From the NCBI RefSeq assembly GCF_002803515.1, contig NZ_PHQX01000001.1:2542001-2606000 (forward strand): a stretch of 64,000 nucleotides of DNA, in the 5' to 3' direction. The notes beneath the pieces were generated by a model, which saw nothing but the letters and a program-made list of their open reading frames with translations, did no database searches and had not been told where the DNA came from. The position numbers were made by a program, and so were the translations under genes. This document shows, in pieces, positions 15,014 to 38,417 of the stretch. Numbering within the stretch: position 1 is the stretch's first letter; every line of letters starts with the position of its first letter. The DNA comes from Stenotrophomonas lactitubi (lineage in GTDB: Bacteria; Pseudomonadota; Gammaproteobacteria; Xanthomonadales; Xanthomonadaceae).

Positions 15014-15090
<77 letters not shown>

Positions 15091-15228: not shown

Positions 15229-15305
<77 letters not shown>

Positions 15306-21074: not shown

Positions 21075-22328
21075 GTGGACATGAACCCGTGGCTCAACGC
21101 CATGTTCCAGTTCGCCTTCTTCTACCCCATGGTGATGGCGTTCTTCTGGATGTCCGGTGGCCTGTACTACTTCTTCCGCCGTGAGCGGAAGTCGCGGCCG
21201 CGCAACGACCCACCCCCGATGGCGGAGTATCCGTTCGCCAGCCTGTTGATTCCGTGCCACAACGAATCGGCGAACCTGGACGACACCCTCGGTGCGGCAT
21301 TGGCCCAGCGCTATCCGGACTTCGAAGTGATCGCCATCAACGATGGCAGCAGCGACGACACCGGCGCCCGCCTGGACGCGCTTGCGGCCCTGCACCCACG
21401 CCTGCGGGTGGTCCATCTGGACCGCAACCTGGGCAAGGCGAATGCGCTGCGCATGGGTGCCCTGGCTGCGCGTTCGGAGTATCTGGTGTGCATCGATGGC
21501 GATGCCATGCTGGAAGAGTTCGCCATGCACTGGATGGTCTGGCACCTGACCAGCGGTCCGCGCGTGGGCGCGGTGACCGGCAACCCGCGCATCCGCAACC
21601 GCTCCACCCTGCTCGGCCGCCTGCAGGTGGCGGAGTTCTCCTCGATCATCGGCATGATCAAGCGCGCCCAGCGTGTCTACGGCCGCATCTTCACGGTGTC
21701 CGGGGTCATCGCCGCATTCCGTCGCACGGCCCTGCACCGCATCGGCTACTGGGCCGATGACATGGTCACCGAGGACATCGACATCAGCTGGCGGCTGCAG
21801 CTGGATCATTGGGACATCCGTTACGAGCCCAACGCGTTGTGCTTCATCCTGATGCCGGAAACACTGAAGGGACTGTGGCGGCAGCGCCTGCGCTGGGCAC
21901 AGGGTGGCGTGGAAGTGTTGCTGCGCCATGGCTCCTCGTTGTTCAGCTGGCGCAAGCGGCGCATGTGGGGCGTGCTGCTGGAATACATCCTCAGCGTGCT
22001 GTGGGCCTACACCATGCTCGCGATCATCCTGCTGTGGGCACTGGGCAAGTTCATCCCGGTGCCGCCGCAGTTGTACATCGACACGTTGCTGCCGCAATGG
22101 CATGGCGTGATCCTGGCGCTGGTCTGCCTGCTGCAGTTCGCCAGCAGCCTGATCATCGACAGGCGTTACGAAACGCATATCGGCCGCAACTATTTCTGGG
22201 TCATCTGGTACCCGATGGCGTACTGGTTGATCAGCCTGTTCACCACGCTGGTGGCGCTGCCCAAGACCCTGCTCAGGCGGCGTGGCAAGCGTGCAACCTG
22301 GGTCAGCCCAGACAGGGGTATCCGATGA
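21075..22328 (+). CDS. pgaC: Poly-beta-1,6-GlcNAc synthase PgaC
   Basis: Processive family-2 glycosyltransferase of the inner membrane, 417 residues, using UDP-GlcNAc. Motifs in order: SLLIPCHNESANLDDTL, DDTGARLDAL, the DxD-type DGDAML, VTEDIDISWRLQ and QRLRWAQGG (QxxRW). Transmembrane helices flank the catalytic domain (about 8-28, then several from 310 on). GTG 21075 is preferred because the GGAG at 21064-21067 sits 7 nt upstream; ATG 21081, two codons later, is the alternative. The stop overlaps pgaD as ATGA. Confidence 0.94.
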   Translation: MDMNPWLNAMFQFAFFYPMVMAFFWMSGGLYYFFRRERKSRPRNDPPPMAEYPFASLLIPCHNESANLDDTLGAALAQRYPDFEVIAINDGSSDDTGARLDALAALHPRLRVVHLDRNLGKANALRMGALAARSEYLVCIDGDAMLEEFAMHWMVWHLTSGPRVGAVTGNPRIRNRSTLLGRLQVAEFSSIIGMIKRAQRVYGRIFTVSGVIAAFRRTALHRIGYWADDMVTEDIDISWRLQLDHWDIRYEPNALCFILMPETLKGLWRQRLRWAQGGVEVLLRHGSSLFSWRKRRMWGVLLEYILSVLWAYTMLAIILLWALGKFIPVPPQLYIDTLLPQWHGVILALVCLLQFASSLIIDRRYETHIGRNYFWVIWYPMAYWLISLFTTLVALPKTLLRRRGKRATWVSPDRGIR

Positions 22329-22816
22329 ACGCACATCGCCAGACCGCCACGAGGAAGCCGTCCAACCGCTTCGACTCGCGCCTGATCCAGAAGCCGCGCC
22401 AGCAGCCCCGCCTGCAGCGCACCGCCTGGGGGTTTGTGACCCTGGCGTTCTGGGGGTTCTACTTCTATCTATGGGCGCCGCTGGTCACCCTGGTGTCCTG
22501 GTTGCTGGGCGGGCAGCAGGCGTGGCTGCAGCTGTACGAGCGCAAGCAGCACCTGGATCCGTTCGTGATCATCGCCCTGCCGGTGATCCTGGCCGGCTGC
22601 GCGCTGCTGCTGATCGCCTGGGCCGAATACAACCGCTACCGTTTCGCCGGCAGGGAACGGCGCAACCCACGCGAGGACGCCAGCCGTTCGGAGATCGCCC
22701 GTTCGCTTGGTGCCAGTGATCAGCTCGCCGAACAGATGTTCAATGCGAAGGCCATCACCCTGCACATGGATGAGCATGCGCGGCCGCTGGGCATGACTGC
22801 GCAGCTGTTGCGGTAA
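22325..22816 (+). CDS. pgaD: Poly-beta-1,6-GlcNAc biosynthesis protein PgaD
   Basis: Small inner-membrane partner of PgaC, 163 residues with two transmembrane helices (about 36-60 and 81-103). In E. coli, PgaC and PgaD together form the c-di-GMP receptor that switches polymer synthesis on. The sequence is weakly conserved; position after pgaC with an ATGA overlap, size and topology support the call. It is longer at the C terminus than E. coli PgaD (137 aa). Confidence 0.85.
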   Translation: MNAHRQTATRKPSNRFDSRLIQKPRQQPRLQRTAWGFVTLAFWGFYFYLWAPLVTLVSWLLGGQQAWLQLYERKQHLDPFVIIALPVILAGCALLLIAWAEYNRYRFAGRERRNPREDASRSEIARSLGASDQLAEQMFNAKAITLHMDEHARPLGMTAQLLR

Positions 22817-22903
22817 GGGGGGTTCGGCCGGGCTGCGCCCGGTACCCGCAGAGGCAACAGCAACGGCCGAAGCAACGGCAACAGCTGGGTTCCGTGGGAT
22901 GGC

Positions 22904-22999
22904 GGGGCGGTGTCGGATTGCGGGGACGCCGCAAGTACGTCCCTGTAGGCTTGTCAGCCGCATCCATGCGGCTGACACCCCGCAATCCGACACCGCCCC
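22904..22999 (-). repeat. Structured repeat with 52-nt loop, copy 1
   Basis: A perfect 22-bp stem (22904-22925 with 22978-22999) encloses a loop of 52 nt. On the minus strand the loop begins TGTCAGCCGCATGGATGCGG and ends ACAGGGACGTACTTGCGGCGT (last 20 shared with copy 2). It contains its own small hairpin centred on CATGGATG. The same architecture recurs at 23188-23289 and 38312-38417 with different stem sequences. Confidence 0.8.
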
Positions 23000-23024
23000 A
23001 CCTCTGACAGATATCCGCAATCTG

Positions 23025-23138
23025 GTAGATCCACGCCATGCGTGGATGAATCTCCATCGGAATCGAATATTTCGAATTCGGAATGAAAAACATCCACGCA
23101 TGGCGTGGATCTACGTGTCGACCAAGGTCGACACCTAC
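23025..23138. repeat. SMAG palindromes inside the island
   Basis: GTAG-headed units at 23025-23047 (plus) and 23092-23114 (minus) form an inverted dimer based on ATCCACGC/GCGTGGAT. A third hairpin of the GTAG type at 23115-23138 is built on GTCGACCAAGGTCGAC. The 44 nt between the dimer arms contain the AT-rich palindrome AATATTTCGAATTC, which may be a relic of an insertion between the arms. Confidence 0.8.
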
Positions 23139-23187
23139 CAACAGCAGCACGGTACGTCGTTCCGACAGCTCGCGGAAATCTGTCGAA

Positions 23188-23289
23188 GGCGGGGTGGGTC
23201 CGGTTGCGGGGGTGTAAGCGCCATGGATGGCGCGCCCAAGCCTACAGGGACGTACTTGCGGCGTCCCCCGCAACCGGACCCACCCCGCC
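23188..23289 (+). repeat. Structured repeat with 52-nt loop, copy 2
   Basis: A perfect 25-bp stem (23188-23212 with 23265-23289) around a loop of exactly 52 nt. The stem differs from copy 1 at several positions on both arms yet stays fully complementary. The loop holds GCGCCATGGATGGCGC and then the conserved AAGCCTACAGGGACG and GCGGCGT. Confidence 0.8.
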
Positions 23290-23371
23290 ATCCCACAGGA
23301 ACCCAGCTGTTGCCGTTGCTTCGGCCGTTGCTGTTGCCTCTGCGGGTACCGGGCGCAGCCCGGCCGTGAAC

Positions 23372-24619
23372 CTACCTTCTGACCTGGCCTTCGCCGCGCA
23401 CCACGAAACGTTCGACCGTGAGCGCTTCCAGTCCCATCGGGCCATAGGCATGCAGGCGCGTGGTGGAGATCCCGATCTCGCTGCCGAGGCCGAGCTGGCC
23501 GCCATCGGAAAAACGTGAAGACGCGTTGACCATCACCACCGCCGAGCGCAACGCGTTGACGAAACGCTCGGCACTGGCCGCGTCTTCGGTGGCGATCACT
23601 TCGGTGTGATCGGAGGTATAGGTGCGGATGTGCGCGATCGCTGCGTCAAGATCGTCGACCACGCAGACCGCCAGTACCAGATCAAGGAACTCGGCGGCAT
23701 AGTCATCCTCGCTGGCCGCAGTGCTTCCCGGCAGCAACGGCTGCGCGCGCGCGTCGGCACGCAACTGCACACCACGTTCGGCCAGCGCCTGCGCAGCGCG
23801 CGGCAGGAAGTCTGCGGCAATGTCCTGGTGCACCAGCAGGGTTTCCAGTGAATTGCACGCGGACGGGCGACTGCACTTGCCATCCACCAGCAGATCGAGC
23901 GCTTTTGCAGGGTCGGCACTGGCATCCACGAACAGGTGGCAGACACCCTTGTAGTGCTTGATCACCGGTACCCGTGCGTGTTCTGCAACGAAGCGGATCA
24001 GGCCCTCACCACCGCGCGGGATGGCCAGGTCGATCAGTTCATGCAGCTGCAGAAGTTCCAGCATGGCTTCGCGGCGCAGGTCGGTCAGCACCGTCACGGC
24101 GGCAGGGGGAACGCCGTTGGCCTTCAATGCCCCGGCCAACGCCTGCGCGATGGCAGTGTTGGAATGGATGGCCTCCGAACCTCCACGCAGAATCACGCCG
24201 TTGCCCGCCTTCAGGCACAGCGCGGCGGCTTCGGCGGTTACGTTCGGGCGTGCTTCGTAGATCATCGCGATCACCCCCAGCGGCACGCGCACCTTCTGTA
24301 CGCGGATGCCGTTCGGACGCACGTCGTCGCGGGTCACCTGCCCGACCGGGTCCGGCAGGCCCGCCACCTCACGCACCGCATCGGCCATTGCCAGCAGGCG
24401 TGCCGGGTCCAGCGCCAGGCGGTCGAGCATCGCGCTGCCCACGCCCTTGTCGCGGGCGGCGGCCAGATCGCGCGCATTACCCGCAAGAATCTGCCCGGCA
24501 TTGACCTCCAGCGCCTGCGCCATCGCCAGCAGCAGCGCCCTGCGGGCATCGCTGTCGAGGCCAGCGACCACCTGGGCTGCGTCACGGCAGGCGCGGGCCT
24601 GCGATTCGATCTCACTCAT
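23372..24619 (-). CDS. proA: Gamma-glutamyl phosphate reductase (proline synthesis)
   Basis: NADPH-dependent reductase making glutamate-5-semialdehyde, second step of proline synthesis; 415 residues (E. coli 417). The catalytic Cys is in [14 protein letters not shown], and [12 protein letters not shown] and [22 protein letters not shown] are typical. I chose ATG 24619 because it starts MSEI as relatives do and has AGGA nine nt upstream; an in-frame ATG at 24643 overlaps the proB stop and is the alternative. It is the last gene of the arg-pro run. Confidence 0.95.
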
Positions 24620-24639
24620 CGGGACATCCTGCAATGGGT

Positions 24640-25797
24640 TCATGGCAGCACCAGATCGTCGCGATGGACGACGGTTCCGCCGTAGTTGTAGCCGAGCACG
24701 GTCTGGATGTCGCGCGTGTGGCGGCCGGCAATGCGGCGCACATCATCGGCGGCGTACTGGCTGACACCACGGGCCACGCAGACCCGGCCAGCTTCGGTGT
24801 TCCAGCACACCTGCACCATGTCACCACGGCGGAACGCGCCATCGGCACCGGTGATGCCACCGGGCAGCAGTGAGGCGCCCTTCTCGCGCATCGCCTGCGC
24901 TGCACCGGCGTCGATCAGGATCGCGCCTTCGGCCAGCGGCGCGTGCCGCAGCCAGTGCTTGCGGGCGGCCTCGCGGCTGCGCGCCGCGTGGATGCGGGTA
25001 CCGAACAGGCGATCCTGCGCCAGCGCGCGCACCACCTCGCCGCTGCGACCGTTGAACAGATAGGTTTCGATGCCGACACGGCCGGCCTTGGCCGCGGCCT
25101 CCAGCTTGGTGCGCATGCCGCCGGTACCGGCGACTGAACCGGCACCACCGGCCATCGCCAGCACGGCATCATTCAACTCGGGCACGTCGTGCAGCGGCCG
25201 TGCATCGGCATGCGTGCGCGGGTCGGCACTGTAGAGGCCATCGATGTCGGTGGCGATGAACAGTGCATCAGCATCGACCAGCGCCGCCACGGTCGCGGCC
25301 AGGTTGTCGTTGTCGCCGAGCTTGAGCTCGTCCACCGATACGGTGTCGTTCTCGTTGACCACCGGCAACGCACCCAGCCGCAACAGCTCGTTGAGGGTGG
25401 CCCGCGCATTGAGGTAGCGACGGCGGTTGCGCAGATCGTCATGGGTCAGCAGCACCTGCGCCACCGGGCGCTCGAAGAAGCGCTGCCACAGACCGATCAG
25501 CTGCGCCTGGCCAAGTGCCGCCAATGCCTGTCGCGCAGCCATCGCCGCACCGGGCTCATCGGCCCTGGGCAGGATCGCGCGGCCGGCAGCCACCGCGCCG
25601 GAGGAGACGATGACCACTTCGCGCCCGGCCAGCACATTGGCCGAGACGAACTGGGCCAGGCCCAGCGCGTGACGCGGTGACAGGCCACCGCCATCGGCCG
25701 CGAGCAGGCTGCTGCCGACCTTGAGTACAGCACGCCGCCACGACGGCAGCGCTTGTTCGGGGAACGGCGATGCAACGTTGGCGGCGTGGACAGTCAT
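24640..25797 (-). CDS. proB: Glutamate 5-kinase
   Basis: First enzyme of proline synthesis. With ATG 25797 it has 385 residues: an amino acid kinase domain (about 15-270; [49 protein letters not shown]) and a C-terminal PUA domain (about 290-380). An upstream in-frame ATG at 25827 overlaps the preceding small gene and lacks family support. The stop overlaps ATG 24643 by ATGA, so proB and proA are coupled. Feedback inhibition by proline is usual in this family. Confidence 0.95.
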
Positions 25798-25807
25798 CGG
25801 GGGCGCC

Positions 25808-26071
25808 TCAGCGGGTATTCCATTCATGGACGCTCAGCGCGGATGCCTGCATCGTCACCAGCGGATCGGTGGCGACGATGGCCTGTGCCTGCGCAAGGCT
25901 GTCGACGTTGCACAGCACATAGGCGCCGCCACTGCCATCGGCAAAGCCGCCGGTCAGCTGCAGCTTGCCCTCGGCCTGCAACGCATCAAGAAAGTCGCGG
26001 TGCGGTTGCACCACAGCGTCGGTGAAGCCGGGCTGGCGCATCGCCAGCACCAGGTAGACGGTGCCGGCCAT
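25808..26071 (-). CDS. YciI family protein
   Basis: An 87-residue protein of the YCII/dimeric ferredoxin-like fold: [15 protein letters not shown], then HRDFLDALQAEGKLQLTGGF and the later DPLVTMQASALSVHEW. The conserved His in the PHRDFL helix and the Asp in the last third agree with the YciI pattern. Function in this family is mostly unknown (possible hydrolase or dehalogenase-like activity). Its ATG shares one base with the argH stop (TGATG), so it is co-translated with argH. Confidence 0.8.
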   Translation of the reverse strand: MAGTVYLVLAMRQPGFTDAVVQPHRDFLDALQAEGKLQLTGGFADGSGGAYVLCNVDSLAQAQAIVATDPLVTMQASALSVHEWNTR

Positions 26072-27366
26072 CAGGACAGCGCCTGCCAGCGCGCGCGCAG
26101 TTCATCCAGGCGCAGGTCCGACGCCGAACCCGGCGATACACGCGCCGCCAGGCTGCCTTCCGGCGTACGCCCCTGCCCTGCGCTGTCGGCGCCGGCAGCA
26201 GCGGCCTTGTAGGCCTCGCGGAAGGGTACGCCCGCGACCGCAGCTTCCACCGCTACGTCGGTGGCGTACATGCCTGAATCGATCGCCGCACGCAGCTTGT
26301 CATCGCGCCATTCCAGGTTGGCCAGCAGCGCCGGCAGCAGCTCCAGCGCGGCCAGGCCACGGCCGAAGCCGTGGAAGATCGCGCCCTTGGACGACTGCAG
26401 GTCACGGTGGTAACCCGACGGCAGCGACAGCAACTGCTCGATCTCGGTACGTGCAGCGGCGACGCTGGCATGGGTCGCCCGCATCAGCTCGATCACGTCC
26501 GGATTGCGCTTGTTGGGCATGATCGAACTGCCGGTGGTGTACTGCGCCGGCAGCGCCACGAAACCGAATTCGGCGCTGGTGAACAGCGACAGGTCCCAGG
26601 CGATGCGGCGCAGGTCCAGGGTCGCGCCACCCAGCGCTTCCAGTGCGGCCAGTTCGAACTTGCCACGCGACAGCTGCGCGTAGATCGGCGAGATCTGCAT
26701 GCGCGCAAAGCCGAGCGCGCGGGTGGTGTGCTCGCGGTCCAGCGGCAGGTTCACGCCGTAACCGGCGGCGGTGCCGAGCGGATTGGCATCGATCAGCGCA
26801 TGGGTATCACGCGCACGCACAGCGTTGTCGATGAAGGCTTCGGCCCAACCGGCCCACCACATGCCGGCCGAGGACACCACCGCACGCTGGATGTGGGTGT
26901 AACCGGGAATCGGCAGGTGCTGTTCGGCCTGCGCACGGTCAAGGGCGACCTTGGCCACTTCGGCACTGACCTGCGCCACGCGCTGCAACTTCTCCTTCAA
27001 CCACAACCGGGTGGCGACCAGGATCTGGTCGTTGCGGCTGCGGCCGGTGTGGATCTTGCGGCCGGCATCACCAAGGCGTTCGGTCAACCGTGCCTCGATG
27101 GCCGAATGGCCATCTTCATACTGCGTATCCAGCACGAAGCGGCCTTCCCGGAAGTCCTGCGCCAGCACCTCCAGCTCGCGCAACAACCCTGCCAGCTCGT
27201 CGGCGCTGAGGATGCCGATGTGCTGCAGGCCCTGCGCGTGCGCGGCGCTGGCGGCGATGTCATGCAGGAAGAATTCGCGATCGAGGATCACGTCGTCGCC
27301 GGCGAGGAAGGTCTGGATCTGGGCATCGACAGCGACGCCTGGCTTCTGCCAAAGAAGGTCTGCCAT
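26071..27366 (-). CDS. argH: Argininosuccinate lyase
   Basis: Last step of arginine synthesis: cleaves argininosuccinate to arginine and fumarate. 431 residues, slightly shorter than E. coli ArgH (457). The fumarase/aspartase superfamily signature [16 protein letters not shown] is near residue 275, the catalytic loop serines lie in it, and the N-terminal HTGRSRNDQ motif is intact. Located 19 nt after argC in the leftward cluster. Confidence 0.96.
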
Positions 27367-27385
27367 GGGGGGCTCCTGTACGGTT

Positions 27386-28342
27386 TCAGTGCGGGATCGA
27401 CGTCAGTTCGTCGATGCCCAGCGCGAGATTGAGGTTCTGCATGGCCTGGGTGGCCGCGCCCTTGAGCAGGTTGTCCAGGGTCGCCACCACCACCACCCGC
27501 TTGCCACCCGGCGCCAGCGTGAAGCCGCCGACCTGGGCGCCATGGCGGCCGGCGATGCGGCTCACCCACGGCGCCTCGTCCACGACCTCGATGAGCGCTT
27601 CACCGGCATAGGCCTGCTGGAAGCGCTCGACGATCTGCTCGCGGGTCTGCACACGGTTCAACCAGAGGTTGGCGGTGAGGGTGATGCCACGGAAATGCGG
27701 CGCGACGTGCGGCATGAATTCGACCGCCACGCCCAGCTGCACGGACACCTCACGCTCGTGCACGTGGTTGGTCAGCGCGTACGGCATCAGGTTGTCGGCC
27801 AGCAGCTCGACGTTGTTCTTGTCCGACGGCGAGGTGCCGGCACCGGAGTAGCCGGACACGCCGAAGCACTGCGGCGGGCCAGCCAGCAGCTCCCGCAGCG
27901 GATGGATCGCCAGCTGCATCGCAGTGGCATAGCAGCCGGGATTGCTGATGTGCTTCTGCCCGTTGTAACGGTCGCGGGTAAGCTCGGGCAGGCCGTAGTA
28001 CCAGGCAGTGTCGAAACGGTAGTCGGCCGACAGATCGACGATCACCGTGTCCGGCTTCGCCGTTTCCAGCGCCGCCACGAACGGAGCAGCCAGTCCGTTG
28101 GGCAGCGCCAGGATCACCGCATCCACGCCCTTGGCGGCAACGGCATCGGCGTTGAGATTCTCGAACTGCAGTTCACCCTGCCACTGCGGGTAGTGGTCGG
28201 ACACGCGCTGCCCGGCCAGTTCGCGCGAAGAGACGAAGCCCAGCTGCAGGTTCGGATGCGCGGCCACCAGCCGGATCAGCTCGGCGCCGGTATGGCCGCG
28301 GGCGCCGACGATGCCGACGGTGAACGAGGAGGAAGTGCTCAT
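27386..28342 (-). CDS. argC: N-acetyl-gamma-glutamyl-phosphate reductase
   Basis: Third step of the acetylated arginine route; 318 residues. The N-terminal NADP-binding motif [16 protein letters not shown] and the catalytic Cys in [13 protein letters not shown] (about residue 136) are clear. No Shine-Dalgarno is visible before ATG 28342; the start lies just behind a 14-bp tandem duplication (28335-28362) that also carries the stop of the preceding GNAT gene, suggesting an ancestral ATGA overlap. Confidence 0.95.
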
Positions 28343-28352
28343 GCGTGCGTGC

Positions 28353-28952
28353 TCATGCGTGCGAGTCGAGGCGGTGCTGCAGGTGGCGTTTCACGCCCTG
28401 CCATTCCGCGTCGATGATGGAGAAGATGACGGTGTCGCGCGGCGTGCCGTCGGGATGGCGACGGTGATTGCGCAGCACGCCATCCTGCTTGGCGCCCAGG
28501 CGCGCGATCGCGGTGCGCGAGGTGAAGTTGAACCAGCTGGTTTCAAACACCACGCTCAGGCACTCCAGCCGCTCGAAGGCGTGGCTGAGCAGCATCAGCT
28601 TGGTTTCGGAGTTGACCCCGGTGCGCTGCACCGACTCGCCATACCAGGTGTAGCCGATGCTGAGCCGCGGTACGTCAGGCTGCAGATCGTAGTAGCGGGT
28701 GGTGCCGACAATCTGGTCGTTGGCATCGAACACCACGAACGGCAGCACCTTGCCCTCGGCCTGCACCTGCAGCGCGGCCTGCACATAGCCGGTCATGGTC
28801 TTCGCATCGGGCACCTGCGTGTACCAGAGCTTCGACAACGCACCGTCACCCAACGCACCGCGCAGGCCATCGATATGGCTCATCTGCAGCGGTTCCAGCC
28901 GCGCATGCGTGCCGGTCAGCGTGGGTACCTTGGTCCAGTCTGCGTGATTCAT
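28353..28952 (-). CDS. GNAT family N-acetyltransferase
   Basis: A 199-residue protein of the RimJ/RimL-like branch: [19 protein letters not shown] at the start, [12 protein letters not shown], then the acetyl-CoA region [20 protein letters not shown] and the C-terminal [24 protein letters not shown]. It sits between argB and argC, 5 nt after argB, and therefore is probably co-expressed with arginine synthesis. The substrate (protein N terminus or small amine) is unknown. Start ATG 28952 has a GGAGGG ribosome site. Confidence 0.88.
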
Positions 28953-28957
28953 CGTGC

Positions 28958-30286
28958 TCAGCCCTCCAGGCTCGGTGCACGCACGGCGCAATGGTCGACA
29001 TAGGTCCTGATCCGGTCGATGCCATCGGCACCGTACCAGAACACCTTCCAATTGCCCTGCTTGTAGCAGCCATCGGATTCGGCGTAGTAGAAATGGTTGA
29101 TCGGGTTGCCGTTGCGTGAGCGCCAGAACAGCTGAGGAGTTTCTTCCAGCATCACGTTCCAGACGGCGCGGCCCAGGCCTTCACCCTGCGCATCGTCGAG
29201 CACGGCGAACTTGTCCAGGTACACGCCCTCGGCCTCATCGGTGAGGATCACCGCCGTGCGGTAGTTCTCGCTGACATAGGCGCGCAGCAGCGTGGTCTTC
29301 TCGAAATAGTCCGGCACCAGGGTGCGGCCGAAACTGGATTCGATCAGGCCCTTCAGGCGCGGCAGGTCCAGCTCGCTCCAAGCGGTTGCACGCAGCACCT
29401 TCTCGCCCTTGCGTACCAGCGTACCCGAGCCCTTGTGGGTAAACAGTTCCTTGGCCAGGTCGGCGGGCCGGGTGATCGACACCGACGATTCCAGCGGCAG
29501 CCGGTCCAGCAGCGACTTGATCTGTTCGATCTTCACCTTCATGCCACCGTGGATCCACGGTTGCGCGATCAGGTGGTCGTACTCGGTGGACAGGTTGATC
29601 GAATCGATCACGCTGCCCTCTTCGTCCAGCAGGCCGCCGGTACCGGTCAGGAAGATGATCTTGTACGGCTGCAGTTCCTGCACCAGTTCGTTGGCGGCGA
29701 AGTCGGCATTGACGTTGAGGATCTGTCCACCGGCGGTCTCACCGAGGCTGGTGATGACCGGGATCGAGCCGGCACGCAGGCTGGCTTCGATCGGTGCCAG
29801 GTTGACCTTCTTCACCTCGCCGACCAGACCGTAGGTATCCAGGCCCAGGTACTCCGCCTCGAACACGCCACCCGTGATGGACGTGGCGCGCGCGCCGTTC
29901 TGCTGCAGGGCTTCGACCAGGCGCAGGTTGGATTGCTGGAACACCCGGCGCACGATCGCCAGCGCTTCCGGCGAGGTCACCCGCAGGCCGTTGACCGTCT
30001 GCTTTTCAATGCCGGCGGCCGCCAGTTCCGCATCCAGCTGCGGGCCGGCGCCATGCAGCACGATCGGGGTCAGGCCGACCTCCTGCAGGAACGACAGCGA
30101 GGAGGTCAGCGCGTCGAGATCGTCGCGCAGCACTGCGCCGCCGACCTTGACCACGGCGAAGCGCTTGGCGTCCAGCTGCGAGAAGCGCTTGAGGTACTGG
30201 CTGATCTCCTTCGCGCTGGCCATGCTCGAGAGCAGGCGCACGATGGTCTGGCGGGTCTGGCGGTGGGGCTGGAGGGCAGGAGACAT
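28958..30286 (-). CDS. argB: Bifunctional N-acetylglutamate synthase/kinase
   Basis: A 442-residue fusion. Residues about 20-280 are an amino acid kinase domain ([43 protein letters not shown], and the later [13 protein letters not shown]). The last about 150 residues are a GNAT-type acetyltransferase domain ([20 protein letters not shown], then [16 protein letters not shown]). Such NAGS-K enzymes are known from Xanthomonas and Maricaulis and perform the first two steps of arginine synthesis; arginine normally inhibits them. Start ATG 30286 is inferred from the onset of homology; upstream codons are low-complexity. Confidence 0.92.
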
Positions 30287-30360
30287 TTCGGTTTCGTCAC
30301 AGGCGGCGGTCGCCGCGTTGCAGTTCCGCCGCGCAGAAGCGCAGCGGCGTTGTAGGTCGA

Positions 30361-31449
30361 TCAGGCGCCGGCGGCGATGATCCGGCATACGGCGTCGGTG
30401 TAGCGCTGCAGCTGCTCCAGCGTCACGAACTCGTCGGCGGTGTGGGCCTGGGCGATGTCGCCCGGGCCGAACACCAGCGTGGTATAGCCAGCGGCCGAGA
30501 ACAGCGACGCCTCGGTCCAGAAGTCCACCGCGTTGCCGATCGGAATATCCAACGCATCGGCCACGTCGCGCGCCAGCAGGCGGCGGTTCTCGGCTTCGGC
30601 GATGTCGCCCGCCGGCAGGCTGGGGCCACGGAAGGTTTCGGTGAACACCGCCGCTTCCGGTTCGGCGAAACCGGCAAAGGTCGCCAGCAGCGCATCGATA
30701 TCCATCGACGGCAGCGGCCGGAAGCCGAAGCGCACTTCCGCCGCCGGCGCGATCATGTTGGCCTTGATGCCACCTTCAACCCGCCCGATGTTGAAGCGCA
30801 GGCCGGTCAATCCACCGAAGCGTGCCGAGGCCAGCGATTCGACGTGGTCCAGCGCACGGTTGCCCCAGCGCATCGCCTGGTGCAGCGCACTGGCGGCTGC
30901 ATCCTGCTTGCCCGACGCGTGGCCGGCACGGCCGGCGAACTGCATCAGCACCGAGCTGATGCCACGATGCGCGAGCACCGCTTCGCTCATGGTCGGTTCG
31001 GCCACCAACACCGCTTCGTACTTGATGCCCCGGGCCAGGAACGCGGCAATACAGCGCGGATCGTTGGCTTCTTCATCGCTGGAGAACAGGAACGCCGCGT
31101 CGCCATCACTGGCATTGGCTGCAGCCACCAGCGCAGCAGCCGCCCCCTTGATGTCACACACACCGAGGCCGACCACACGGTCGTCCAGGCGGCGCATCAC
31201 GTGCGGGTCGGCACTCCAGTGCGGCGAGTCCGGCACGGTGTCCAGATGCACGTTGAACAGGTACTTCGGCGTACCGCGCACGGCATACAGGCTGACCGCG
31301 CCAGCGCCATGGTCGATCACCTCGACATTGAACCCGGGCAGGTTGTCGCGCAGGTAATCGAAGATGCCGCCGGTGGTGATCGCACGCGGCGGGTTGCGGG
31401 TGTCGAAGGACACCAGCGCCTGCAGGTGATCGAGCGTCTGTTCAAGCAT
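30361..31449 (-). CDS. argE': N-acetyl-L-citrulline deacetylase (ArgE-like M20 peptidase)
   Basis: Zinc hydrolase of the M20/ArgE family, 362 residues. Metal and catalytic motifs: [32 protein letters not shown] and the dimerisation lid starting [14 protein letters not shown]. Its neighbour carbamoylates acetylornithine, so the substrate here is expected to be acetylcitrulline, as shown for the Xanthomonas enzyme. By sequence alone ArgE activity on acetylornithine cannot be excluded. It lies 74 nt before argB. Confidence 0.88.
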
Positions 31450-31472
31450 GAATCAACAATCCTGTGGATTTC

Positions 31473-31495
31473 CGCCGGGCATGGCCCGGCGCTAC
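31473..31495 (-). repeat. SMAG palindrome between argG and argE'
   Basis: One GTAG-headed unit (GTAGCGCCGGG then CCATGCCCGGCG, read on the minus strand) in the 140-nt gap. With the unit at 32801-32823 it brackets argG in opposite orientation. A hairpin here could tune the relative mRNA level of genes in the run. Confidence 0.8.
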
Positions 31496-31589
31496 CGGAA
31501 CGCGTCTGGAGGAGAGCCCCCTTCTTGTTGAAGGGGGCGCGCCAACGGCGCGGGGTTAAGGAGGAATGCGCGGGCAGGTCGATCGCGGC

Positions 31590-32786
31590 TCAGCCGCGGT
31601 TGACCTGCGCATACAACGTCGAGCTCATGCCGAACAGCTTGATGAAGCCTTCGGCTTCTTCCACGCCCCAGTCGGCCGACTGCGCATAGGTGGCGCCCTT
31701 GGTGTTGAGCAGGTGCGGCGACTTCACCGCAACGGCGTCGACACGACCACCACGGGTTTCCAGCACCACTTCGCCGTTGACCTTGGCCTGCGAGGACTTC
31801 AGGAAGGCTTCGATGTCGGTCTTCAGCGGGTCGTGGTAGAAGCCTTCGTACACCAGCTCCACCCACTTGCGCGCCACGTCCGGCTTGAAGCGGTTCTGCT
31901 GCTTGGTCAGCACCGCATCTTCCAGCGCGCGGTGCGCGGCCAGCAGCGAGACCAGGCCCGGTGCCTCGAACACGATGCGGCCCTTCAGGCCGATCACGGT
32001 GTCGCCGGTGTACACGCCACGGCCGACGCCGTAGGGGGCAAACAGCTTGTTGAGCTGGGCCAGGATCTGCTCACCCGGCAGGGCCTTGCCGTTGAGCTCC
32101 ACGGCTTCGCCTTCGACAAACTTCAGGGTGACGGTCAGCGGTGCTTCCGGCCATTCGCTGCGCGGTGCGCACCAGCCACGGGCGCCCTCGCCCGGTGCTT
32201 CCCAACGATCGATCTCGCCACCGGACATGGTCAGGCCCAGCAGGTTCTCGTTGATGGTGTAGGCCTGCTGCTTGGCGCGCACGCCGAAGCCACGCTCTTC
32301 CAGGTACTTCTGCTCGTAGGCGCGGGTCTGGGTGTGTTCCTTCTGGATCTCGCGGATCGGCGCGATGATCTGGTAGTCACCCAGGGCCTTCACTGCCAGG
32401 TCGAAACGCACCTGGTCGTTGCCCATGCCGGTGCAGCCGTGAGCGATGATGTTGGTGCCCAGTTCGGCGGCGCGCTTGAGCGCGGCATCGACGATCAGGT
32501 AACGGTCCGACACCAGCAACGGGTACTGGCCCTGGTAGCCCTCACCGGCCCACACGAACGGCTTGACGAAGCCGGACCAGATGGCCGGACCGCCATCGAC
32601 GGTCTGGTGGCTGGTGACACCCAGTTCGGCGGCACGCTTCTCGATGAAATCGCGCTCTTCGTCATCCACGCCGCCGGTATCGGCGAACACGGTATGCACG
32701 TTGTAGCCGCGCTCCTGCAGGTACGGCACGCAGAAGCTGGTATCAAGGCCGCCGGAGAAGGCGAGAACGACGTCTTTGTTGCTCAT
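31590..32786 (-). CDS. argG: Argininosuccinate synthase
   Basis: ATP-dependent ligase joining citrulline and aspartate, 398 residues. The N-type ATP pyrophosphatase P loop is [13 protein letters not shown] at residues 6-18. Also visible are [15 protein letters not shown] and the C-terminal [18 protein letters not shown]. It is second in the leftward arginine run after argF'. Confidence 0.96.
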
Positions 32787-32800
32787 GGGGGTATGTCCTG

Positions 32801-32823
32801 GTAGCGCCGGGCCATGCCCGGCG
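32801..32823 (+). repeat. SMAG palindrome between argF' and argG
   Basis: GTAG-headed hairpin (GTAGCGCCGGG then CCATGCCCGGCG) in the 57-nt gap between argF' and argG, in the opposite orientation to the unit after argG. Confidence 0.8.
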
Positions 32824-32843
32824 GAAATGTTCGAATGGAGAAA

Positions 32844-33854
32844 TCAGCGCCCGGCAACAGCGGCCATGATCGCCTTCTGCACATGCAGGCGATTCTCGGC
32901 CTCGTTGATGGCGATGCACTGCGGCGAATCCATCACGCCGTCAGTCGCCTTCACGTTGCGGCGCAGTGGCAGGCAGTGGCTGAACACGCCGTTGTTGGTC
33001 AGCGCCATCTTCCGCTCGTCGACGATGAAGTGCTTGAACTGGTCGCGGATCGGCTTCTCCGGTTCCCAGTTGCCGAAGAACGGCAGTGCGCCCCAGCTCT
33101 TGGCATAGACCACGTCGGCACCGGCATAGGCGCTGTCGATGTCATGGCTGATCTTCAGCGAACCGCCGCTCTCGGCCACGTTCTGCTCGGCCCAGCCCAT
33201 GTAGCGCTCGTCGAGGATGTAGTCGGCGGTCGGGCACAGCAGCGTCACGTCCATGCCCATGCGGGTGGCGATGGTCAGCGCCGAGTTGGCCACGGCGGTG
33301 TTCAGCGGCTTGGGGTGGTAGGTCCAGGTCAGCACGTACTTCTTGCCGCGCAGGTCCTGGGTGCCGAAATGCTCCTGCAGGGCCATCACGTGCGCCAGCT
33401 CTTGGCACGGGTGGGTGATGGTCTCCATGTTGATCACCGGCACCGGCGAGTACCTGGCGAAACTCTCGAGCACGACGTCCTGGCGGTCGTAGGCCCAGTC
33501 GACGAACTTCGGGAACGCGCGCACGGCGATGATGTCGCAGTAACGGCCGAGCACCTTGGCCACTTCAGCGATGTGCTCTTCGGTATCGCCATCCATCACC
33601 GTGCCGAGGTTGAACTCGATCGGCCATGCATCCTTGCCCGGCTGCAGCACCACTGCGTGGGCACCGAGCTGGAACGCGCCCAGCTCGAAACTGGTGCGGG
33701 TACGCATGGACGGATTGAAGAACACCAGCGCGATCGACTTGCCCTTGAGCTGGTCGCCGAGCTTGTTGCGCTTGAACAGCGCAGCCTGGGTCAGCAGCGC
33801 GTCAAGTTCGCTGCGGCTCCAGTCCTGGGTGTTCAGGAAGTGCTTGGGGGACAT
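32844..33854 (-). CDS. argF': N-acetyl-L-ornithine carbamoyltransferase (AOTC)
   Basis: Carbamoylates acetylornithine to acetylcitrulline, a variant of the arginine route found in xanthomonads. 336 residues. Carbamoyl phosphate loop FFNPSMRTRTSFE, then NMETITHPCQELAHV and the AOTC-type HCLPLRRNVKATD. The VMDGDTEEHIAEVAKVLGRY stretch also follows the Xanthomonas enzyme. Three ATGs in a row occur at 33860-33854; the third has AAGGA 6 nt upstream and is chosen. An attenuator-like structure lies about 115 nt upstream. Confidence 0.93.
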   Translation of the reverse strand: MSPKHFLNTQDWSRSELDALLTQAALFKRNKLGDQLKGKSIALVFFNPSMRTRTSFELGAFQLGAHAVVLQPGKDAWPIEFNLGTVMDGDTEEHIAEVAKVLGRYCDIIAVRAFPKFVDWAYDRQDVVLESFARYSPVPVINMETITHPCQELAHVMALQEHFGTQDLRGKKYVLTWTYHPKPLNTAVANSALTIATRMGMDVTLLCPTADYILDERYMGWAEQNVAESGGSLKISHDIDSAYAGADVVYAKSWGALPFFGNWEPEKPIRDQFKHFIVDERKMALTNNGVFSHCLPLRRNVKATDGVMDSPQCIAINEAENRLHVQKAIMAAVAGR

Positions 33855-33969
33855 CATCATTCCTTGCATGAGCGGCGCCGGTGGCCGACGCGGTGGAAGG
33901 TGGAAGGGAAAACCGGGAACCAAGGTGATACGAAAAGGTTGCAGATGAAGCTTTCAGAACGCGGAAACG

Positions 33970-34034
33970 AAAAAACCCAGCCGGCGGGCTGGGTTTTTTT
34001 CGGACGAACAGCAGAAAGCTCCGGATTACCCAGC
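33970..34034 (-). promoter_or_regulatory. Candidate attenuator upstream of argF'
   Basis: Read on the minus strand, an 8-bp stem ACCCAGCC/GGCTGGGT with loop CGCC followed by six T residues forms an intrinsic terminator (33994-33970). The segment GCTGGGT at 34034-34028, which overlaps the stop codon of a small ORF, is perfectly complementary to ACCCAGC, the first arm of that terminator. The two pairings exclude each other, the hallmark of attenuation. The same hairpin could instead just terminate the upstream secreted-protein gene. Confidence 0.55.
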
Positions 34035-34127
34035 GAGAATGTGGGGTTCCGGTCGACGGGCACGCGACGTCATGCCAGTGGCCTGGCGGGCGGCGCTGCT
34101 GTCGTGCTGGAAGTCGGTGAGCTTCAT
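34026..34127 (-). CDS. Putative arginine-containing leader peptide
   Basis: A 33-codon frame whose last codons are ...TSRARRPEPHILAG and stop TAA at 34028-34026, inside the candidate antiterminator. It contains Arg codons CGT, CGT and CGA clustered at 34064-34053, seven to ten codons before the stop. A shorter start at ATG 34073 would give a 15-residue peptide, more typical of leaders. No strong ribosome site is seen before either ATG, so translation is unproven. Confidence 0.35.
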   Translation of the reverse strand: MKLTDFQHDSSAARQATGMTSRARRPEPHILAG

Positions 34128-34183
34128 TGGTCGGCAATCTTTACATGCGGCCGGGGCCGGCGCAAGAGGCCGGCGTCGCAGAA

Positions 34184-34747
34184 TCAGGGGGTACCAGCGG
34201 CAGCCTGCTCGGGGCCTACCCACGGGGTGATCGAAACCCGGATCTTCAGCCGGTTGCCAGGGTCTTCCGGCAGCCGTGAACGGTACTTGGTGCCCTTGTA
34301 GACGTAATCCACGTCGTAGGCGATGGGGCGGCGGAACTCACGCCCGACAGGCACGATGCGACAGTCCCGGGTCAGCATCGGACCGGTATTGGCCGGCGCC
34401 GGGGCGGGGGTTTCCGCCGGAAGCTCCTCCAGCGTCTCCTCGTCGCTGCGCTTGAACATCGAGCGCACCGAATCCCACAGGCGGCCGATGCGGCCCTTGT
34501 CCTCGACCGGCTCCTCGCCGGTGACATTGACCGGGGCCAGGGTGCGGGTCGAGACCGGCTCGCAGTGCTCCTCGGTACGGGTTGCGCGCAGGGTCTGGAA
34601 CACCGGCTCCACGTTGAGCACCTGGGCGTAGTCGAACTTCACGTTCTCCACGATCACCACCCGGTTGCGGGGCTCGGCCTCCTGGGCCAGGACCACGGCG
34701 GGCAGCGCCGACAGGCAGGCCAGGGTCAGCAACGCGGTGGTTTTCAT
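34184..34747 (-). CDS. Secreted protein related to glycine-zipper 2TM surface proteins
   Basis: A 187-residue protein with a signal peptide (residues 1-23, ending VVLAQ). The motif FDYAQVLNVEPVFQTLRATR followed by a Cys, and the C-terminal IAYDVDYVYKGTKYRSRLP and DPGNRLKIRVSITP, resemble the strands that flank the glycine zipper in periplasmic 2TM surface antigens. The glycine zipper itself is absent, replaced by an acidic and Pro/Ala-rich linker (about 75-130). Two cysteines may form a disulfide. Function unknown. It precedes the argF' leader on the same strand. Confidence 0.6.
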   Translation of the reverse strand: MKTTALLTLACLSALPAVVLAQEAEPRNRVVIVENVKFDYAQVLNVEPVFQTLRATRTEEHCEPVSTRTLAPVNVTGEEPVEDKGRIGRLWDSVRSMFKRSDEETLEELPAETPAPAPANTGPMLTRDCRIVPVGREFRRPIAYDVDYVYKGTKYRSRLPEDPGNRLKIRVSITPWVGPEQAAAGTP

Positions 34748-34934
34748 TGGCGATGGGAGCAGGGACACGGCAATAGTGTAGGCAGTGGTGACCGCAAGGG
34801 GCTGAACATTACCCGTCCGCGCCGTTCCTGCCCACCCCACCCCACCCGCCGGTGACGTCCACCGGTGGCAATGGTCCCCCCAAAGGGGCCCGACACGTTC
34901 TAAAATCACAGGCTTGTCCCCCAGTCACAGACCC

Positions 34935-36311
34935 ATGACCCTGCGCCTGCACAACAACCTGACTCGCCAGCTCGAACCGTTCACCCCGCTCGACCCGGCC
35001 TGTCCGACCCTGTATGTGTGCGGCCCGACGGTCTACAACTACGTGCACATCGGCAACGCCCGTGGGCCGGTGGTGTTCGGGGTGCTGGCCGACCTGCTGC
35101 GGCGGCGCTTCGGTGCCCTGCGCTACGCCCGCAACATCACCGACGTGGACGACAAGATCAACACCGCCGCGCGCGAGCAGGGGGTGCCGATCAGCACCAT
35201 CACCGACCGTTTCGCCGCGGCCTACCGTGAAGACATGGCCGCGCTGGGCGTGGTGCCGCCGGACATCGAGCCGGAAGTGACCGCGCACATGGCGCAGATC
35301 ATCACCATGATCGAGCAGCTGGTCAGCAGCGGGCATGCCTACGCCGCCGAGGGCCATGTACTGTTCGCCGTCGGCAGTTTCGAGGGCTACGGCAAGCTGT
35401 CGCGCCGCGATCCGGACGAAATGCTGGCCGGCGCCCGTGTCGAGGTTGCTCCCTACAAGCGCGCGCCCGGCGACTTCGTACTGTGGAAGCCGTCCGGCGA
35501 CGACCTGCCCGGCTGGGAATCGCCGTGGGGCCGCGGCCGTCCAGGCTGGCATATCGAATGCTCGGCGATGGCCGCCGCACACCTGGGCGAGACCATCGAC
35601 ATCCATGCCGGTGGCGTCGACCTGCAGTTCCCGCACCACGAAAACGAGATCGCGCAGAGCGAGTGCGCGCACGGCGGCAAGGTGTTCGCACGCTTCTGGC
35701 TGCACAACGGCATGCTCAACTTCGGCGGCGCCAAGATGAGCAAGTCGATCGGCAACATCGAGCGCGTCCACGACCTGGTGCGTAAACACGCCCCCGAGGC
35801 ACTGCGCCTGGCCTTGCTGTCGGCCCACTACCGGCAGCCGCTGGACTGGTCCGACGCGCTGATCGAACAGTCCGGCCGCACCCTCGACCGCCTGTACGGC
35901 ACCCTGCGCGAGCTGGCCGAGGTGGCCGCCACGGCAGTGATCCCGGCAGACATCGAAGCGGCATTGGATGATGATCTCAATACGCCGCAGGCGCTGGCCG
36001 AAGTGGCCCGTATCGCCGGCGAAGCGCGCCGCGCCACCGATCCCAGCGAACGCGCACGCCTGAAGAGCGAACTGCTCGGCGCGGGTCTCGCCCTGGGCCT
36101 GCTGCAGGCCGATCCGGCGCAGTGGTTCGGCAACGCCGCTGGCGACAGCGACGACGACGCGCGCATCCAGGGCTTGATCGACGAACGTGCGGCAGCCAAG
36201 CAGGCGCGCGACTTCGCCCGTTCCGACGCCATCCGCGACCAGCTGGCCGCCGAAGGCATCGTGCTGGAAGACACCCCGCAGGGCGTGCGCTGGTCGCGCA
36301 AGCGCGGCTGA
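34935..36311 (+). CDS. cysS: Cysteinyl-tRNA synthetase
   Basis: Class I synthetase charging tRNA-Cys, 458 residues (E. coli 461). The HIGH motif appears as VHIGNARG (about residue 38), the KMSKS motif as KMSKSIGN. Zinc ligands are Cys in YVCGPTVYN, the Cys in HIECSAM, and His/Glu/Cys in [14 protein letters not shown] 34935 is chosen over the upstream TTG 34914 because homology starts at TLRLHNN. Confidence 0.97.
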
Positions 36312-36366
36312 CCTGCCCTGCCCCGTGGCCGGCCCCACCGGCCACGCCCCCACTGTAGAGACTGTT

Positions 36367-36819
36367 GTGATCGACTCCCCGTTCCCGCTTGAATCCACCG
36401 CCGCCGAGGCACAGACGGCCATCGCCGAGGAATTCGGTTTCTTCGGCGACTGGTCCGAGCGCTACCAGTACCTGATCGACCTCGGCCGCAAGCTGCCCGC
36501 CTTTCCGGAAGAATGGAAGACCGAAGAGCACCGCCTGCTCGGTTGCCAGTCGATGGTCTGGATCGTGCCGGAAGGCAATACGCAGTCGCTGCGCTTCCAC
36601 GCCATCAGCGATTCGGCCATCGTCTCCGGCCTGATCTTCCTGGCGCTGCGGGTGTACTCCGGGCGCACCGCGCAGGAGATCCTGGCCACCGAACCCAGCT
36701 ATATCCAGGATATCGGCCTGTCCCGCCACCTGTCGCCGACCCGCAGCAACGGCGTGGCGGCGATGCTGGCCTTCATCCGTGAGACCGCGCAGGCCCAGCT
36801 GCAGCGCGATCCGTCGTGA
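36367..36819 (+). CDS. sufE: SufE family sulfur acceptor
   Basis: Accepts persulfide sulfur from the cysteine desulfurase SufS for Fe-S cluster assembly. 150 residues. The acceptor Cys is in EHRLLGCQSMVW (about residue 58), within the SufE core GDWSERYQYLIDLGRKLP and later LSPTRSNGVAAML. No ATG fits; GTG 36367 starts just before the conserved region. The stop overlaps the next GTG. It follows cysS by 55 nt, a sensible pairing of cysteine users. Confidence 0.9.
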   Translation: MIDSPFPLESTAAEAQTAIAEEFGFFGDWSERYQYLIDLGRKLPAFPEEWKTEEHRLLGCQSMVWIVPEGNTQSLRFHAISDSAIVSGLIFLALRVYSGRTAQEILATEPSYIQDIGLSRHLSPTRSNGVAAMLAFIRETAQAQLQRDPS

Positions 36820-38063
36820 GCGAACCTGCCACAGCCGAAGACACCGCGCTGGGCCTGCTGTCCCGGCCCGGTTTCGCCCGGCTGCTGGCGTACCGCATCT
36901 TCGCGATGCTGTCCTACCAGGTGGTCGCGGTCACCGTCGGTTGGCACATCTACGAAGTCACCCGCAATCCGTTCTCGCTGGGCCTGATCGGCCTGGCCGA
37001 GGTGCTGCCGTTCTTCTGTGTGGCCCCGTTTGCCGGTTATCTGGTGGATCATCTGCCGCGCCGCAAGCTGGGCATGGTCGCCTGTTCCGGACTGATCGCC
37101 ACCGCGCTGGTGCTGACCAGCGTAGCCAAGGGCTGGCTGCCGGTTGACGGTGTGTGGCCGATCTATGCAGCCATCGCCCTGACCGGCATGGTCCGCGCCT
37201 TCCTGTCGCCGATCTACAACGCGCTGTTCGCCCGCGTGCTGCCACGTGAACATTTCGCCCGTGGCGCCGGCCTCGGCGCCGTGGTGTTCCAGACCGGCAT
37301 GATCGCCGGCCCGGCACTGGGTGGCGTGCTGGTCGGCTTCGGTGGCAAGGGTCTGTCCTATGCGGTGGCCACGGCCTTCGCGCTGGTGGCGATGGGCTGC
37401 CTGGCCACGCTGAAAGTGGAAGAACCGGTGCATGCCGGCCCCGCCGCCCCGATCTTCAAGAGCATCGCCGAAGGCGCGCGCTTCGTGGTTGGCAACCGGA
37501 TCATGGTCGGCGCCATGGCGCTGGACATGTTCTCGGTGCTGCTGGGCGGCGTGGTGGCGATGCTGCCGGCGTTCCTGCACGAGATCCTGCACCACGGCCC
37601 GGAGGGCCTGGGCATCCTGCGCGCAGCCCCGGCGCTGGGTTCGGTGTGCGTCGGCCTGTGGCTGGCGCGCCACCCCCTGCACCGCAACGCCGGTCGCGTG
37701 CTGCTGTTCGCCGTGGCCGGCTTCGGCCTGTGCGTGATCGGCTTCGGCCTGTCCCAGCACTTCTGGCTGTCGGCGTTGATCCTGCTGTTCTACGGCGCCT
37801 TCGACGGCGTGTCGGTGGTGATCCGCTCCACCATCCTGCAGCTGGCCACGCCGGAAGAGATGCGTGGCCGGGTATCGTCGATCAACGGCATCTTCATCAG
37901 CTCGTCCAACGAACTGGGCGCGTTCTATGCCGGCACGATGGCCAAGGTTCTGGGGCTGGTACCGGCGGTGGTGCTGGGCGGGTTCGCGGTGCTCAGCGTG
38001 GCCGGGATCACCGCGTGGAAGAACCCGACGCTGCGGAGATTGAATCTGCGCGACCTGCAGTGA
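36816..38063 (+). CDS. MFS transporter, enterobactin-exporter (EntS)-like
   Basis: A 415-residue major facilitator protein with twelve predicted helices of the MFS_3 type: FARLLAYRIFAMLSYQVVAVTVGWHIYE at the start, PFAGYLVDHLPRRK loop, and IRSTILQLATPEEMRGRVSS before helix 9. Relatives export siderophores or drugs; the substrate is unknown. GTG 36816 overlaps the sufE stop, so the two are coupled. Confidence 0.85.
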   Translation: MSEPATAEDTALGLLSRPGFARLLAYRIFAMLSYQVVAVTVGWHIYEVTRNPFSLGLIGLAEVLPFFCVAPFAGYLVDHLPRRKLGMVACSGLIATALVLTSVAKGWLPVDGVWPIYAAIALTGMVRAFLSPIYNALFARVLPREHFARGAGLGAVVFQTGMIAGPALGGVLVGFGGKGLSYAVATAFALVAMGCLATLKVEEPVHAGPAAPIFKSIAEGARFVVGNRIMVGAMALDMFSVLLGGVVAMLPAFLHEILHHGPEGLGILRAAPALGSVCVGLWLARHPLHRNAGRVLLFAVAGFGLCVIGFGLSQHFWLSALILLFYGAFDGVSVVIRSTILQLATPEEMRGRVSSINGIFISSSNELGAFYAGTMAKVLGLVPAVVLGGFAVLSVAGITAWKNPTLRRLNLRDLQ

Positions 38064-38187
38064 TCCCGCGGAGAGCGGGTTCGGCGGCGCCGGGCATTTG
38101 ACTGGGCCCGTCACTCTCCCTCGATGCGGTGCTCGGCTCGCTACAAGGCGGACCCAACAGCCGCGAGCGCACGCATGACCGCTCCTG

Positions 38188-38286
38188 GTAGAGCCAAGCC
38201 ATGCTTGGCTGTTTTTGTTTTTGTTTTTGTTTTGCTCTTCCCTGCCCTACGGCTTCGGCCTGAGCCGAGCATGGGCTCGGCTCTAC
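38188..38286. repeat. SMAG-type inverted dimer around a TTTTTG run
   Basis: GTAG-headed units at 38188-38210 (GTAGAGCCAAGCC then ATGCTTGGCT) and 38263-38286 (AGCCGAGCATGGGCTCGGCT then CTAC) in opposite orientations. Between them TTTTTG is repeated about four times, a slippage-prone tract. Confidence 0.75.
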
Positions 38287-38311
38287 AGCGGCCGCACTCG
38301 GGAACCGTCTG

Positions 38312-38417
38312 GAGCGGGCGGGTCACCCGGGCCAGGACCGTTCGCGCCATGGATGGCGCGACCGAGCCCCCAGGGATGGGTTTACGGCGTGTCCTGGCCC
38401 GGGTGACCCGCCCGCTC
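38312..38417 (+). repeat. Structured repeat with 52-nt loop, copy 3
   Basis: A perfect 27-bp stem (38312-38338 with 38391-38417) around a loop of 52 nt. The loop shares GCGCCATGGATGGCGCG, CAGGGA and CGGCGT with copies at 22904-22999 and 23188-23289, whereas the stem is unrelated in sequence. Confidence 0.8.

Follow-up and report, generated by a model that had tools for sequence, protein, structure and literature searches.

We report a family of hairpin-forming repeats in Stenotrophomonas lactitubi (assembly GCF_002803515.1), three copies of which lie in a stretch of 64,000 nucleotides (nt) of contig NZ_PHQX01000001.1, positions 2,542,001 to 2,606,000; this whole stretch is called the window below, and positions in it are counted from its first letter. 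In each unit a long stem, paired but free in sequence, would present a fixed 52-nt core with two small C-G-closed hairpins, and both of their hexaloops match ANGGAN, the loop recognised by CsrA/RsmA. We consider it rather probable that the family is a dispersed RNA module which presents a predicted dual CsrA/RsmA site and titrates CsrA/RsmA. A preliminary description of the three window copies had offered a mobile hairpin, a protein-binding site or an RNA as explanations, and a protein-binding RNA appears to be the best reading.

The core and its two hexaloops

The perfect stems of 22, 25 and 27 base pairs (bp) and loops of exactly 52 nt that were first described are confirmed for all three window copies. 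Copy 1 (22904-22999, minus strand) pairs its 5' arm at 22978-22999 with its 3' arm at 22904-22925 around a loop at 22926-22977; copy 2 (23188-23289, plus strand) has 25-bp arms at 23188-23212 and 23265-23289 and its loop at 23213-23264; copy 3 (38312-38417, plus strand) has 27-bp arms at 38312-38338 and 38391-38417 and its loop at 38339-38390. Hexaloop 1 reads AUGGAU in each (22962-22967, 23223-23228 and 38349-38354), and hexaloop 2 reads AGGGAC in copies 1 and 2 (22939-22944 and 23246-23251) and AGGGAU in copy 3 (38372-38377). The three units fold at -78 to -92 kcal/mol, with z-scores of -10.8, -8.4 and -10.5.

A strict core pattern, CATGGATG-N6-30-CAGGGA, has three matches in the window, where shuffles lead one to expect 0.03, and 80 in the genome with none in the controls; the spacer is 15 nt in every one of the 80, despite the 6-30 nt allowed. 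A looser pattern matches 170 times, a count of the pattern taken without regard to the stems, and a covariance model derived from 60 different copies finds at least 150 full-length units, a figure that is a floor, all 150 scored candidates having matched. In 79 of the 80 strict-pattern copies the 52-nt register is accompanied by an outer stem with no more than three imperfect pairs (mismatch or G-U) in its first 22, the remaining copy (L021) being without its 5' arm. These 79 copies have one layout in common: the outer stem, about 25 bp long, is followed after a few nt by hairpin 1, whose 5 bp close AUGGAU; a linker with RAG at its end leads to hairpin 2, where 3 bp close ANGGAN and a 5-nt bulge and 3 more bp follow; and the right arm completes the unit. 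At the 5' end of the units stands an upstream motif with the family consensus GGAAACTGTC; of 112 copies, 13 were dropped for want of a good anchor, and in the other 99 the GTC of the motif never varies. In the window it reads GGAAATCTGTC at 23174-23184 (plus strand), adjoining the 5' end of copy 2. Across the family, conservation is far stronger in the loop than in the stem, and stems are unrelated between subfamilies. The two doubts raised in the preliminary description, that copies might prove few or loop lengths might vary freely, are answered in this genome by the 170 matches and the 79 loops of 52 nt, and its proposal of a large, constant-loop family distinct from SMAG is supported.

To examine the hexaloops we used a finder that left them and their closing pairs free, fixing only the linker, the right-hand motif, the pairing of hairpin 1 (four paired bases required) and the stem (at least 14). 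The resulting 218 non-redundant units comprise 105 from this genome, 43 from a closely related genome (G021) and from orthologous loci of the genus, 21 from relatives in the order and 49 from GTDB Gammaproteobacteria contigs, and all 436 of their hexaloops read ANGGAN; since GGA was part of the patterns or model by which most of the loci had been collected, copies with altered loops are possibly under-sampled. The tally is AUGGAU 180, AGGGAU 118, AGGGAC 79, AAGGAU 21, AUGGAC 18, AAGGAC 10, ACGGAC 6, ACGGAU 2 and AGGGAA 2. Hairpin 1 is closed by C-G in 210 of 210 units and hairpin 2 in 216 of 218, the other two having U-A with the hexaloop still AGGGAU. A UACAGGGAUGU form is also present in this genome (L008). 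The two GGA triplets lie 23 nt apart in 80 of 80 strict-pattern copies.

These features are those of a known ligand. PMC7652899 gives the ligand selected for CsrA/RsmA by systematic evolution of ligands by exponential enrichment (SELEX) as RUACARGGAUGU, mostly in hexaloops closed by AC/GU, describes RsmE bound to hairpins with an ANGGAN hexaloop, and reports that dual sites 10-63 nt apart are bridged by one CsrA dimer. By sequence, both hexaloops match this recognition loop and the 23-nt spacing falls within the bridged range. The genome has one CsrA match, the csrA gene at C1:1215600.

Covariation and exchange between copies

The outer stem remains paired while its sequence changes. Among 77 distinct sequences, with one truncated copy omitted, 98.4% of the cells of 25 outer pairs are Watson-Crick or G-U. 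The figure is 65.7% in shuffles and does not exceed 51.6% in slid registers; double changes occur in all 25 pairs, against 14-16 in slid registers. In a gapless 66-column alignment of 60 distinct copies, 99.4% of the 1080 cells of 18 pairs are paired (79.1% in shuffles, 38-55% in slid registers) and 14 of the 18 pairs have changed on both sides, compared with 9.8 in shuffles; the number of further pair types in these copies, 20, shows no excess, 341 of 500 shuffles being as high. Within six stem subfamilies, each of at least four copies and together holding 84 of 111 units, we count 44 two-sided paired changes where about 3.7 are expected by independence, along with one-sided changes that give 26 mismatches and 27 G-U pairs. 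Both small hairpins covary as well, hairpin 1 (GCGC/GCGC, GCCG/CGGC, GCGG/CCGC, GCAG/CUGC and others) and hairpin 2 (UAC/GUA, CCC/GGG, UCC/GGA, CUC/GAG, UGC/GCA and UAU/AUA), and the covariation first described, in the stem and one internal hairpin, is borne out. It holds less well for the particular case of copies 1 and 2, which had been described as compensatory: their stems are fully paired, but they belong to two different subfamilies, their MAFFT alignment has a gap in each arm, and they are not simple point-compensated versions of each other.

Copies 1 and 2 form an outward-facing pair between a plus-strand gene (22325-22816), which by eye looks pgaD-like, and a minus-strand gene (23372-24643), by eye proA-like, both with their 3' ends toward the pair. 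Among 30 genomes fetched for this locus, ours has both units; one (L233) has a single intact unit where copy 2 stands here, its stem differing by a paired change; another (L243) has an intact unit of a different subtype at the position of copy 1, and its unit at the position of copy 2 is split; two more (L220 and L222, the latter stopping at a contig end) have split units; and in the other 25 neither the finder nor blastn finds a unit. The split in L220 (about 2028-3280) lies at or near hairpin 2, with an insert carrying a transposase frame that matches Pfam IS110 families, while L222 (about 1990-2132) and L243 (about 1287-1372) are split at or near hairpin 2 by what by eye is a like insert of about 85 nt; IS110-type elements may target the core.

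At the locus of copy 3 an intact unit is found in nine of 30 genomes including this one (8 of 29 other genus loci), two with the stem seen here and seven with another; some of the remaining loci are cut by contig ends and some hold remnants. Between this genome and G021 the hairpin 1 of this locus has changed on both sides with an identical stem. For G021, 20 loci were fetched and 12 are co-linear with loci of this genome; at eight of these 12 at least one unit has another stem and/or loop subtype between conserved flanks, two of them differing in the loop only. The comparison of these loci therefore shows both that replacement between copies is frequent and that paired changes are real. The possibility, acknowledged from the outset, that recombination between repeats accounts for the stem differences holds in part, as the eight replaced loci show; within subtypes, though, there are the 44 two-sided changes, and hairpin 1 has a clean double change at the copy-3 locus.

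The same data bear on the explanation that the stem is kept perfect by DNA processes, namely template-switch correction between the arms and conversion between copies, and not by selection on RNA pairing. Replacement of units or loops at eight of 12 loci agrees with it, and two-sided changes far above independence would also follow from one-step correction of an arm. However, the internal hairpins of 3-5 bp, which we judge too short for arm correction, covary across many genera and at one orthologous locus, and the one-sided mismatches and G-U pairs persist, so that we hold this explanation to be somewhat unlikely.

Relatives and distribution

The preliminary description knew of no name for the repeat, a statement that does not stand, since Yersinia YPAL/RU-2 and the Rfam family RF02770 (Ysr224) are relatives. 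The 168-nt RU-2 contains the core and agrees with one copy here at 45 of 53 aligned positions (table 1b, PMC2759123), and both ANGGAN loops and an enclosing stem are present in its printed sequence. YPAL is likewise multicopy, with 2-144 copies in eleven Yersinia species and at least 37 in ten of them (PMC2847712); according to PMC2229807 it is mobile and makes target duplications of 3-26 bp. RU-2, as printed, is 168 bp long with an imperfect stem and a 53-nt core, whereas the units here measure 96-106 bp in the window, have mostly perfect, hypervariable stems and stand in outward pairs; the length of about 168 bp with conserved outer parts is not seen in the window units. The reverse complement of the Ysr224 consensus contains the same two hairpins, the match being on the opposite strand with a best score of 29.1 bits against a gathering score of 70. 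Ysr224 is described as temperature-responsive (PMC9029176) and as multicopy with differing expression in Y. ruckeri (PMC12112432), a species for which PMC2847712 gives only two YPAL. At gathering thresholds Rfam has no family for the units, and low-threshold microRNA matches were judged to be chance matches to GC-rich hairpins.

Other repeats are more remote. The repetitive extragenic palindromic (REP) sequences of the SMAG/GTAG type are also short intergenic palindromes, but they measure 20-40 bp with a GTAG or CGTC tag (PMC3733652), and membership is ruled out by the different anatomy of the 96-106 bp units, with their 52-nt structured core in a long stem. The repeat families of Pseudomonas fluorescens (PMC2718517) were taken into consideration as well. 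The decoy RNAs CsrB and CsrC, which capture CsrA dimers by several hairpin loops with GGA (PMC7652899), resemble the units in having such loops, but differ, together with RsmX/Y/Z, in being one to few dedicated small RNA (sRNA) genes, where we find a two-site module in well over 100 intergenic copies. The RsmX/Y/Z RNAs are decoys with several GGA hairpin loops of the same kind. No published link between these repeats and CsrA was found at the level of listings and term counts, a search outside which lies the founding YPAL paper (De Gregorio 2006); term counts likewise found no literature naming both CsrA and YPAL, and CsrA and Ysr224 are co-mentioned in PMC9029176, a survey that lists sRNA families.

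Pattern searches with no control matches found the core in 77 of 297 genomes and 16 of 54 genera of the family, with up to 239 copies, and in 29 of 369 genomes and 25 of 271 genera of the class, with up to 91 copies outside the family. Among the matches listed, Marinobacter, Shewanella, Zobellella, Oceanisphaera, Alteromonas, Halopseudomonas, Methylomonas, Sedimenticola, Thioalkalivibrio, Erwinia, Xanthomonas dyei and two Stenotrophomonas records carry it; the named-record search did not include CATGGATG as loop 1. For 85 distant copies with enough flank, from 80 loci, the best perfect stem, in some cases just 3-6 bp, encloses 52 nt in 45, 53 nt in 16 and other lengths in 24. By blastn, copy 2 and an Erwinia copy have no match in plasmids, copy 3 has none in phages and the Erwinia copy has none in E. 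coli, for which PMC2847712 lists three YPAL matches. In Erwinia sp. ErVv1 (L164, 7440-7784) three cores lie within about 350 bp on alternating strands, two of them with 6-bp stems around a 52-nt core. The genome of a relative (G042) has a unit no more than 113 bases from the first base of contigs C2, C5, C7, C8, C10, C11, C13 and C14; it seems, therefore, that draft assemblies are interrupted by the repeats, and the copy numbers counted in them may be minimum values.

Placement and a predicted role in CsrA titration

The 112 copies fall into 68 sites, 44 pairs and 24 singles, and all 44 pairs face outward (minus then plus). None of the 112 extends more than 20 nt into a called gene, the gene positions being those of an in-house caller of open reading frames that was not benchmarked against annotation. 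Neighbouring genes are convergent at 25 sites, tandem at 38 and divergent at five, so that 63 of 68 sites have at least one neighbour with its 3' end toward the site. The 18 window gaps of at least 100 bp are five convergent, six tandem and seven divergent; divergent gene pairs are under-used by the element (5/68 against 7/18, Fisher p=0.002), a comparison for which the control is limited to the 18 wide gaps of this single 64-kb window, not all of them free of copies. Around copies 1 and 2, the only place searched, no sigma-70 promoter-like site was found.

This intergenic placement, with gene 3' ends facing most sites, suggests that the units would be transcribed, in the orientation that yields the ANGGAN loops, within 3' regions or by read-through of neighbouring genes. 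As in decoys of the RsmZ type, one CsrA/RsmA dimer would then bridge both loops, while the stem would shield the module and keep it apart, and we infer that the copies together titrate CsrA/RsmA and so couple titration to the transcription of many genes. The family spreads and is overwritten like a small mobile or converting repeat of the YPAL type.

The same placement, and the folding energies of the three window units, could be read as those of a REP-like stabiliser of 3' ends or a barrier to transcription, whose working part is the long stem and whose loops look like CsrA sites by coincidence. We give this little credence: the loop is far better conserved than the stem, and inspection by eye of a listing of 112 copies showed no T-tract immediately behind the stems, a ground on which an intrinsic terminator was rejected too.

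The single orientation of the pairs, the patchy copy number within the genus, the exchange of units or loops at conserved loci and the reported mobility and target duplications of YPAL would all suit a selfish DNA hairpin, a non-autonomous element of the miniature inverted-repeat transposable element (MITE) or YPAL type. A transposase would recognise its folded single strand, and the loops would serve as contacts for protein on DNA, with no function as RNA. The degenerate positions of both loops are, however, those of the CsrA ligand, and neither a clean empty site nor a target duplication was seen at the two loci examined (30 genomes each), although units are absent in many of the genomes. 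We therefore think it unlikely that the family is this and nothing else; it may still be a selfish DNA element, which is compatible with a function as RNA.

Several observations weigh against a dual CsrA/RsmA site that titrates the protein. Part of the variation comes from the exchange of units or loops. In single-sequence folds the GGA of hairpin 1 is unpaired with a median probability of 0.999, but that of hairpin 2 is open with a probability above 0.5 in only 41% of 111 copies; covariation supports the open form. Hairpin 1 has at least five G-C rich pairs, where most SELEX ligands had four or fewer (PMC7652899), and a decayed orthologue outside the 218-unit set (L291) carries AUGAAU as its first hexaloop. 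The annotation of Ysr224 lies on the opposite strand, the loops of which have no GGA. Genomes of the genus carry anything from no copy to at least 85, and the element is therefore dispensable. Finally, csrA is found in 25 of 27 genomes with the core and 21 of 27 without (p=0.25), which does not discriminate, the two core-bearing genomes with no CsrA match being G563, which is 98% complete and has three cores, and G377, which is 75% complete and has one.

The CsrA/RsmA module may nevertheless fit a wider setting. The CsrB family RF00018 has no match above its cut-off in 31 genomes, this one included, with two weak matches of about 22 bits below it and with the RsmX/Y/Z families not searched for, and two Xanthomonas studies report no rsmB/csrB homologue. 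Since the core has relatives in many Gammaproteobacteria, it may therefore be a scattered decoy where the usual CsrA decoy RNAs are not found. More speculatively, and in our estimate rather unlikely as a whole, a mobile hairpin would have become in the Xanthomonadaceae, which have no recognised csrB/rsmB decoy, a distributed CsrA/RsmA decoy of well over 100 intergenic copies with one dimer each, total transcription past gene ends would set the level of free CsrA, and the same module, seen in Yersinia as YPAL, would be a class-wide mobile CsrA-binding RNA. If so, YPAL repeats and the widely annotated sRNA Ysr224 would be reinterpreted as carriers of dual CsrA sites, and the family would exemplify a genome-spreading repeat able to rewire a global regulator.

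Some further features of the window complete the description. The interior of the pair formed by copies 1 and 2 (23000-23187) holds further short palindromes, which, following the preliminary description, we take to be SMAG-like. Directly outside the pair, at 22801-22890 and 23290-23370, lie runs of 6-nt units resembling GTTGC/GCAAC, and such runs are found outside many other copies. Elsewhere, Rfam places an Xoo5 sRNA at 34005-34129 (minus strand, 99.7 bits) and two tRNA matches with identical scores at 15014-15087 and 15229-15302 (plus strand).

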